From Candidatus Woesearchaeota archaeon (lineage in GTDB: Archaea > Nanobdellota > Nanobdellia > Woesearchaeales > JAFGLG01): DNA of 64,000 nt. Shown piece by piece: positions 19,453-42,102 of this stretch. The stretch lies in assembly GCA_016928155.1 (NCBI GenBank), contig JAFGLG010000002.1, forward strand, positions 135,118 through 199,117, written 5' to 3'. The notes below the pieces were generated by a model. It made no database searches, had not been told where the DNA came from, and worked only from the letters and a program-made list of their open reading frames with translations. Both the position numbers and the translations under genes were made by a program. Every line of letters begins with the position of its first letter. The stretch's first letter is position 1.

Positions 19453-19653
19453 ATGGAAGTCAAGGCACAGATCAAGGAATGGGGAAACAGCTATGGCATC
19501 AGGATATCAAAAAGCGATGTCAGGAAATTAGGCATTGTGAAAGGAGAGACTGTCCACCTAAAGATAAGCAAAAATGAATATGATATCGACCAGTTTATCG
19601 GCATATGCAGAGGAGCAAAACCATTCATAAGGGAAAAAGAGGACAGATATTGA
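19453..19653 (+). CDS. AbrB/MazE-like antitoxin
   Basis: A 66-aa protein beginning MEVKAQIKEWGNSYGIRISK, the swapped-hairpin AbrB pattern (KEWGNSxGIRI), followed by a linker that would wrap the toxin (DIDQFIGICRGAKPFI). It binds DNA as a dimer and neutralises the partner PIN nuclease. The start is the second in-frame ATG, right after the palindrome. Its TGA overlaps the TTG start of the PIN gene. Confidence 0.85.
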   Translation: MEVKAQIKEWGNSYGIRISKSDVRKLGIVKGETVHLKISKNEYDIDQFIGICRGAKPFIREKEDRY

Positions 19654-20033
19654 AATATGTCATTGATTCTTCAGCGTGGATCGAATTGTTTCTGGGGAGT
19701 GCTGAAGGCAAGAAAGCTGCAAAAGTAATCAAGAACCCAAAAAATGTCATAATAACAAGCGATGTAACATTTGGTGAAATATACAGCTGGGCTATGAAGA
19801 ATGGTTTTGATGCTGGCAAATTAATGGGATGCATAAGACAAAATTCTGAAGTGTTTGAAACATATGTCAACATCTGGATCGAAGCAGCTGATCTGCGCGA
19901 CAGGAGGAGAGAGAAAGCGAAGAAGTTCTCATTGATCGATGCCATCATCTACAGGATCTCGCAGATGACCAAGGCAAGGCTGGTTACAAAGGACAAGGAT
20001 TTCAAGGGACTGAAGAATGTGATCCTGTTGTAA
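19650..20033 (+). CDS. vapC: PIN-domain RNase toxin (VapC-like)
   Basis: A 127-aa PIN domain: KYVIDSSAWIELF supplies the first catalytic Asp, VTFGEIYSW the Glu, and SLIDAIIYRISQ with LVTKDKDF the later acidic residues. VapC toxins cut specific tRNA or rRNA sites. A TTG start overlaps the antitoxin stop (TTGA), giving coupled translation; a longer start would overlap the antitoxin by 45 bases. Confidence 0.9.
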   Translation: MKYVIDSSAWIELFLGSAEGKKAAKVIKNPKNVIITSDVTFGEIYSWAMKNGFDAGKLMGCIRQNSEVFETYVNIWIEAADLRDRRREKAKKFSLIDAIIYRISQMTKARLVTKDKDFKGLKNVILL

Positions 20034-20045
20034 TATTTCTAAACC

Positions 20046-20055
20046 TTTATAAATA
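20046..20055 (+). promoter_or_regulatory. TATA box upstream of tRNA-Pro locus
   Basis: TTTATAAATA stands 28-37 bases before the first GGGGCTGTGGGG copy (20083), the same spacing that TATTTAAATA has to tRNA-Val at 42 kb. It is 113 bases from the tRNA-Pro body itself, so transcription should begin at the upstream copy. Confidence 0.6.
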
Positions 20056-20079: not shown

Positions 20080-20156
20080 CTTGGGGCTGTGGGGCAACTG
20101 TTTCGTCAGTTGAGTGCGTTAGCGACTCCTAGTCGCTTCGCGTCCGGAGTCCCTAG
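20080..20156 (+). ncRNA. Structured leader or small RNA sharing the 5' end of tRNA-Pro
   Basis: This segment begins TTGGGGCTGTGGGG, identical for 14 bases to the start of the tRNA-Pro 85 bases later. It folds as a three-way junction: CTTGGGGCT (20080-20088) with AGTCCCTAG (20148-20156, one mismatch), hairpin CAACTG-TTTCGT-CAGTTG (20095-20112), and hairpin GCGACT-CCT-AGTCGC (20122-20136) extended by GCG/CGC (20116-20118 with 20139-20141). It cannot make a tRNA by itself because no T arm or 3' acceptor strand is present. It may be a tRNA leader, a separate sRNA, or the remnant of an insertion that duplicated the tRNA 5' end. Confidence 0.45.
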
Positions 20157-20167
20157 AAAACCTTATT

Positions 20168-20289
20168 GGGGCTGTGGGGTAGCTTGGATGGCAGGGCTCT
20201 TGCTTTGCCAGAGCAACTATCCTCTCTGGTTTGGGGCCAGATGACCCCGGTTCGAAACCGCTTATGCGGCGAATGTCCGGGCAGCCCCA
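20168..20289 (+). tRNA. tRNA-Pro(TGG) with D-loop insertion and T-loop intron
   Basis: Acceptor GGGGCTG pairs with CAGCCCC, discriminator A. D stem GGGT (20177) pairs with ATCC (20219); anticodon arm TCTGG-TTTGGGG-CCAGA has anticodon TGG at 20232-20234. Two insertions interrupt it. In the T loop, bases 20257-20275 (19 nt) form a textbook bulge-helix-bulge: outer helix CCCGG/CCGGG, 3-nt bulge TGT, central helix TTCG/CGAA, 3-nt bulge AAA, inner helix CCGC/GCGG; cutting between the second and third bulge bases restores the loop TTCGAAT. In the D loop about 30 nt (20188-20217, boundary uncertain by a few bases) separate AGCTTGG from TATCC; they fold as a hairpin but I cannot draw a canonical bulge-helix-bulge. 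The spliced RNA is 73 nt. CCA is not encoded. Confidence 0.88.
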
Positions 20290-20322
20290 GTTTTTAATTC
20301 TGGGTTGCGTATAATATCTTAC

Positions 20323-20372: not shown

Positions 20373-21317
20373 ATGACATACATTGAGACTATCAGAAGAG
20401 GGAATAAAAAATATTATTATATCACAAAGAACATTAGAGCAGATATTAACAGATGGAAGAAAATCAGAATTTATGTCGGAGATAAGAAGCCAACTAAAGC
20501 AGAAATCAAGAAGCACGCAGAAGAGATTGAGAAAAGAGCAGAAAAAGAAGGCCTGACCAAATCAGAATATGTCTATTTGTCAATTAGAGATGCTGAAACA
20601 CTGCAGGATTTAAAAGAAAGCTATAAAGAGTGGGTGAAGAAAACACCTGAAAGCATCAGGAAAAAGTTTTATGATGATTTTGTTATCAGATTTACTTACA
20701 ACACCAATGCCATAGAAGGAAATAGGCTTACTTTGCGACAAACTGCACTTATTCTCAAAGATAGAGTGCTTCCCTCTGGTGTGCGAGCATCTGATTACCA
20801 TGAAGCTGTCAACGGGAAGGAGTGTCTAGAATACTTGAAATCATACAAAGGAGGATTAAACAACAAGCTTCTAGAGAAAGTGAATGGTATTCTGACAAAA
20901 AATACTGATGTTAGTTATAGCGGGAGAATACGATTTTTTGATGTTAAGATTGAGGGTTCTAAACACACCCCACTTTCAAACGAGAAAGTGAAAAAACACT
21001 TATTGAATATGTATAAATGGTATAGTGCCAATAAGAATAAACTCCACCCATTTGAGCTGGCAACCCTGATTCATGCCAAAATCGCCTGGATCCATCCGTT
21101 TGAGGATGGCAACGGAAGAACTGCTCGTGCGATCATGAATTGGCTTTTAATCAAAAATGGCTATCCAATGTTCTTTATTCCATTTTGGAGAAGAGAAGAA
21201 TATTACATGACCCTGGAGGAAGCTGATAAAGAGAATTTTAAAGATTATGTAGCCAGAATGTTACGGTTGATTATTGACCAAGTAAGATATTACGGGCACA
21301 AAAGGGAGAAAAAATAA
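20373..21317 (+). CDS. Fic-family AMPylase
   Basis: A 314-aa Fic protein. The catalytic loop HPFEDGNGR begins at H241 and matches HPFx(D/E)GNGR fully, so AMP transfer is expected. An inhibitory helix lies upstream with TNAIEG (111-116), fitting (S/T)xxxE(G/N), so it is the self-inhibited class II type. The N-terminal 100 residues are basic and helical and may dictate the target. No separate antitoxin is adjacent. The gene is bounded by repeats of TTACGGGCACA and lies directly after tRNA-Pro, hinting at acquisition with an accessory island. Confidence 0.92.
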   Translation: MTYIETIRRGNKKYYYITKNIRADINRWKKIRIYVGDKKPTKAEIKKHAEEIEKRAEKEGLTKSEYVYLSIRDAETLQDLKESYKEWVKKTPESIRKKFYDDFVIRFTYNTNAIEGNRLTLRQTALILKDRVLPSGVRASDYHEAVNGKECLEYLKSYKGGLNNKLLEKVNGILTKNTDVSYSGRIRFFDVKIEGSKHTPLSNEKVKKHLLNMYKWYSANKNKLHPFELATLIHAKIAWIHPFEDGNGRTARAIMNWLLIKNGYPMFFIPFWRREEYYMTLEEADKENFKDYVARMLRLIIDQVRYYGHKREKK

Positions 21318-41999: not shown

Positions 42000-42102
42000 G
42001 GGTCCATGGTCTAGTTGGTTATGACGTCGCCTCGACATACACAGCAACAGGTTGCTGGATTCGGTACGGCGGAGATCCCCGGTTCGAATCCGGGTGGACC
42101 CA
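42000..42102 (+). tRNA. tRNA-Val(GAC) with canonical anticodon-loop intron
   Basis: Acceptor GGGTCCA pairs with TGGACCC, discriminator A; T arm CCCGG-TTCGAAT-CCGGG. Anticodon stem TCGCC/GGCGG. The intron is 42038-42066 (29 nt) after position 37: central helix TCGA/TCGG, bulges CAT and TAC, inner hairpin CAGCAA/TTGCTG. Splicing gives anticodon loop TCGACAC, anticodon GAC at 42034-42036. Position 33 is C rather than the near-universal U. CCA is not encoded. Confidence 0.92.

Follow-up and report, generated by a model that had tools for sequence, protein, structure and literature searches.

A tRNA-Pro(UGG) gene of a Woesearchaeales archaeon with two predicted BHB introns, in the D loop and the T loop

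We identified in a 64,000-nucleotide stretch of a Candidatus Woesearchaeota genome (the window) a tRNA-Pro(UGG) gene interrupted in both the D loop and the T loop by inserts that are, judging from their sequence motifs, very probably BHB introns which an EndA-type endonuclease and the RtcB ligase would splice out of a functional tRNA. The gene spans positions 20168-20289 of the forward strand (122 nt), exactly where a sequence-only reading of the window had placed a twice-interrupted tRNA-Pro(UGG), and both inserts proved real. Its three exons lie on the same strand. Exon 1 (20168-20187; tRNA positions 1-19) is a 20-mer that recurs in many relatives, exon 2 (20217-20256) carries the TGG anticodon at 20232-20234 and was delimited from the sequence, relatives and the splicing model, and exon 3 (20276-20289), drawn from the sequence and the splicing model, comprises T60, the T stem, the acceptor stem and the discriminator A. 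Removal of both introns leaves a standard 74-nt tRNA-Pro that matches relatives without inserts and forms a cloverleaf in which all stems pair (acceptor GGGGCTG/CAGCCCC, anticodon stem TCTGG/CCAGA, T stem CCCGG/CCGGG). Once introns are allowed, the gene is matched best by the tRNA-Pro model, and it is the top match in the genome for a covariance model of the spliced tRNA-Pro (model R1). Neither ARAGORN nor the Rfam tRNA model at its gathering cut-off detected a gene at these coordinates. At that cut-off, Rfam recovered a single tRNA in the window, a second interrupted gene, with an anticodon-loop insert, at 42000-42102. A run of five T residues directly 3' of the tRNA-Pro(UGG) gene (20291-20295, forward strand) may act as an archaeal terminator. 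The gene is flanked by coding sequences for a PIN-domain protein (19605-20033) and a Fic-domain protein (20373-21317), an association seen here in position only; PIN toxins of the VapC kind act on tRNAs.

The T-loop intron (20257-20275, forward strand, 19 nt) separates positions 59 and 60, a placement supported by the fold, motif scoring and the site in relatives. Its strict BHB consists of a 4-bp central helix (TTCG/CGAA) between two 3-nt bulges (AAA and TGT), an inner helix (CCGC/GCGG) and an outer helix provided by the T stem itself, and excision restores the TTCGAAT loop exactly (CCCGG-TTCGAAT-CCGGG). This intron, with its central helix, bulges and restored loop, had already been described from the sequence, and motif scoring and folding confirmed it in full. 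Folded without constraints, the pre-tRNA contains the motif in its minimum-energy structure, with central pair probabilities of 0.78-0.85 in ViennaRNA, and none of 20,000 shuffles of the insert reached the observed BHB score even when the motif was allowed to slide.

The D-loop intron (20188-20216, forward strand, 29 nt) follows directly on G18-G19, with the cuts after GCTTGG and before CTATCC. An insertion of about 30 nt had been noted here in the sequence-only reading, and relatives without an insert between the same flanks bear it out; the accompanying statement that it lacks an obvious canonical splice motif did not hold. Motif scoring and the D-loop introns of relatives reveal a strict BHB with a central GCUU/GAGC helix, two 3-nt bulges (GGA and AAC), an inner UGGCA/UGCCA helix and an outer GGGUA/UAUCC helix, which none of 20,000 shuffles of the insert matched in score with sliding allowed. 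The motif is easily overlooked because its central helix includes one G.U pair. Splicing exactly restores a D arm (GCTTGGCTATCC) that is identical in two relatives lacking the D-loop insert (L040 and L115). The nearest-neighbour energies of ViennaRNA favor an alternative fold (UUG/CAA plus AG/CU) over this BHB by about 3 kcal/mol; the BHB has a pair probability of about 0.01 and is not the predicted minimum. The minimum-energy fold instead extends the D arm with a non-BHB structure, as might be expected if the T-loop insert alone were spliced and the D-loop insert were kept as an expanded D arm or removed in some other way. We regard such partial splicing as very unlikely, for relatives without the insert have a normal D loop and removal of the insert restores their sequence. 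Further, introns occupy the same place in 13 genes of relatives (12 UGG and one GGG), and most of these preserve a BHB register in which either GCTT or CTTG forms a 4-bp helix with the end of the intron and AA precedes the 3' cut; the pattern fits L254, L290 and L306 less well. In several relatives (L254, L256 and L294), the intron lacks the CAA partner of the alternative fold at its 3' end, which favors the BHB over that fold.

The sites of both interruptions are conserved in the order. We searched 352 genomes, 117 of which have a tRNA-Pro 5' half within one mismatch, and parsed 103 genes with a TGG anticodon, one per genome and from 46 families, most of them from the 5'-half search and a few from another search. 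Interruptions were present in 84 of the 103 genes, a sample in which genes with a conserved 5' end are over-represented. The most frequent site was 59/60 (67 introns), followed by the anticodon loop (34), the D loop (12) and 53/54 (4). Introns at 59/60 are spread over 32 of the 46 families, range from 13 to 202 nt and in 59 of 67 cases form the full 4-bp central helix; 24 of them have the strict motif, 27 a central helix with altered inner-helix spacing, and 16 neither. Exon base 57 covaries with its partner in the intron (A-T in 43 genes, G-C in 17, other combinations in 7), with a Fisher p of 9e-11 by gene, a value that overstates independence because related genes share ancestry, and of 5e-7 when each family and type is counted once. 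The tRNA-Pro(UGG) gene of Woesearchaeota SURF_58 (L309/L109) packs three very short introns of 12-13 nt, in the D, anticodon and T loops, into 113 nt. At another locus (L277, G041:C15), the parser joined no 3' half to a tRNA-Pro 5' half within 330 nt, and the gene may have a long intron or be split.

A degenerate tRNA-Pro-like copy (20083-20153, forward strand) starts 85 nt upstream of the gene. Its first 12 nt are identical to those of the gene, it folds stably (z -4.2) and its 3' end (GTCCGGAGTCCC) resembles that of the gene (GTCCGGGCAGCCCC); the TGG anticodon and the T arm are absent from it, and an Rfam search of the copy returned nothing credible. Because a TATA-like box (TTTATAAAT; 20046-20054, forward strand), found by pattern match and possibly the promoter of the unit, lies 29 nt before the copy, copy and gene may be co-transcribed. 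Similar partial 5' copies lie 106 nt upstream of tRNA-Pro(CGG) in the same genome (L006, G000:C7) and just upstream of an intact tRNA-Pro in a Diapherotrites MAG (L201, 4629-4710). When 201 tRNA-Pro loci were checked with one 5' sequence, an upstream copy was found only at the window gene and in the Diapherotrites locus. These partial copies may have arisen by tandem duplication and decay, or they may represent a small structured RNA. The copy at our locus indicates that duplication and decay do occur there, and the interrupted gene might by the same token be a decayed pseudogene with random insertions, tRNA-Pro(UGG) being supplied by another gene. This is highly improbable, as the stems are intact, both inserts have a BHB and the genome (1.48 Mb in 17 contigs, rated 99.7% complete) yielded no other UGG gene. 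An intact second copy, with this one untranscribed, had been named beforehand as counting against the double interruption of a working gene, and neither a full-sequence search of the genome nor the covariance model of the spliced tRNA-Pro found such a copy; besides the UGG gene, the proline tRNAs recovered were CGG (C7:34683) and GGG (C7:176655), one each.

An assembly or binning artefact, conceivable in a genome made up of 17 contigs, has next to no probability, since the two splice motifs are independent of each other, dozens of separate assemblies show these sites, and the genome contains further multi-intron tRNAs. One of these (L048, C7:188271-188399) combines a D-loop insert ending in GCAA with an anticodon-loop BHB intron. 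In another (L324, C15:12120-12240), the intron at 59/60 forms a central helix of 4 bp that includes one G.U, its flanking helices pair well, and an anticodon-loop intron is probably present too. Judged by length, 15 of the 20 recovered tRNA genes not of the Leu/Ser type are interrupted in this genome.

As the genome encodes one EndA and one RtcB, the two inserts are best explained by ordinary BHB splicing. We infer that the gene is transcribed as a pre-tRNA with introns after G19 and at 59/60, both of which would be cut by the single EndA-type endonuclease (G000:C17), and that RtcB (G000:C6) would ligate the exons to yield the standard 74-nt tRNA-Pro(UGG). Identification and typing of a splicing endonuclease had been proposed as a check at the outset. 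The one EndA gene found encodes 174 aa from the ATG used, close to the roughly 180 aa of the alpha4 type, and has both Pfam domains and the catalytic Tyr, His and Lys; the N. equitans alpha subunit and the M. jannaschii alpha4 enzyme are among the solved structures nearest to it. No second PF01974 match that could serve as a beta partner was found in the genome at E values up to 10. The loop at the presumed CSL/ASL location is about one residue longer than that of M. jannaschii and has no conserved Lys among 31 sequences; the Lys of the crenarchaeal specific loop is numbered K44 (PMC6379350). With one PF01974 gene, no beta subunit and no specific loop, EndA is predicted from its sequence to be a narrow-specificity alpha4 homotetramer. 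The second subunit or fusion and the CSL/ASL with a conserved Lys that mark the broad-specificity (alpha-beta)2 and epsilon2 enzymes were not found. Within the order, 57 of 60 members have the endonuclease gene, nearly always in single copy.

Both the 59/60 site and multi-intron tRNA-Pro(UGG) are already known elsewhere. Published sites of archaeal tRNA introns include 59/60 and 20/21, and the same source describes non-canonical introns as abundant in Nanoarchaeota as well as Crenarchaeota (PMC4090602). The introns described here resemble those non-canonical BHB introns in their 4-bp helix, 3-nt bulges, 59/60 site and EndA plus RtcB; they differ in the D-loop site just after G19, which is unnamed in the available part of the list, a list that ends in 'etc.' (PMC4090602). 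In Pyrobaculum islandicum, the same isoacceptor has several introns, non-canonical ones included (three, at 25/26, the canonical site and 56/57), whereas here the positions are others and a single alpha-type gene replaces the alpha2beta2-type endonucleases attributed to Crenarchaeota, Thermoproteales such as P. islandicum among them (PMC4090602). ARMAN-1/2 and Nanoarchaeum equitans are likewise archaea of the DPANN type in which some tRNA genes are split or have several introns (PMC4033280), but their endonucleases are broad-specificity epsilon2 or (alpha-beta)2 enzymes (PMC6379350), and we found here neither a beta partner nor a specific loop. The sequence-only reading had considered two introns in one tRNA notable in this type of archaeon. 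The double interruption stands, and its notability is weakened by the relatives, at least two introns being present in 30 of the 103 tRNA-Pro(UGG) genes of the order (three in 3 genes), by the non-canonical introns, with 59/60 among their sites, already described for Nanoarchaeota and Crenarchaeota (PMC4090602), and by the multi-intron tRNAs listed for ARMAN and Nanoarchaeum (PMC4033280). Our search of the open literature, with subscription papers mostly outside it, found no description of BHB tRNA introns in Woesearchaeota; for tRNA introns in Woesearchaeota and DPANN archaea, this mostly open-access literature returned group I introns and circular wRNAs only. As far as searched, then, an ordinary mechanism at a conserved site is new in this lineage.

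Since standard tools such as ARAGORN and Rfam at its cut-off miss such genes, counts of tRNA genes in these archaea are probably too low. Both introns lie precisely at the contact between the D loop and the T loop and, therefore, the elbow of the tRNA would form only after splicing. The strict motifs of the window gene need no broad-specificity enzyme; relaxed motifs occur in some relatives, as in the T loop of L269. Efficient removal of relaxed motifs has been ascribed only to (alpha-beta)2 and epsilon2 enzymes, and specific loops accompany more introns (PMC6379350). With its intron-rich tRNAs and predicted narrow-specificity enzyme, the order allows a test of this published rule, by which the type of EndA and the placement of introns co-evolve (PMC6379350). 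We tentatively suggest, at somewhat less than even odds, that tRNA-Pro(UGG) is an order-wide hot spot for elbow-loop introns, many with relaxed motifs, served only by an EndA that is alpha4-like and lacks a specific loop. If true, the combination would break the published link between non-canonical introns and broad-specificity endonucleases.
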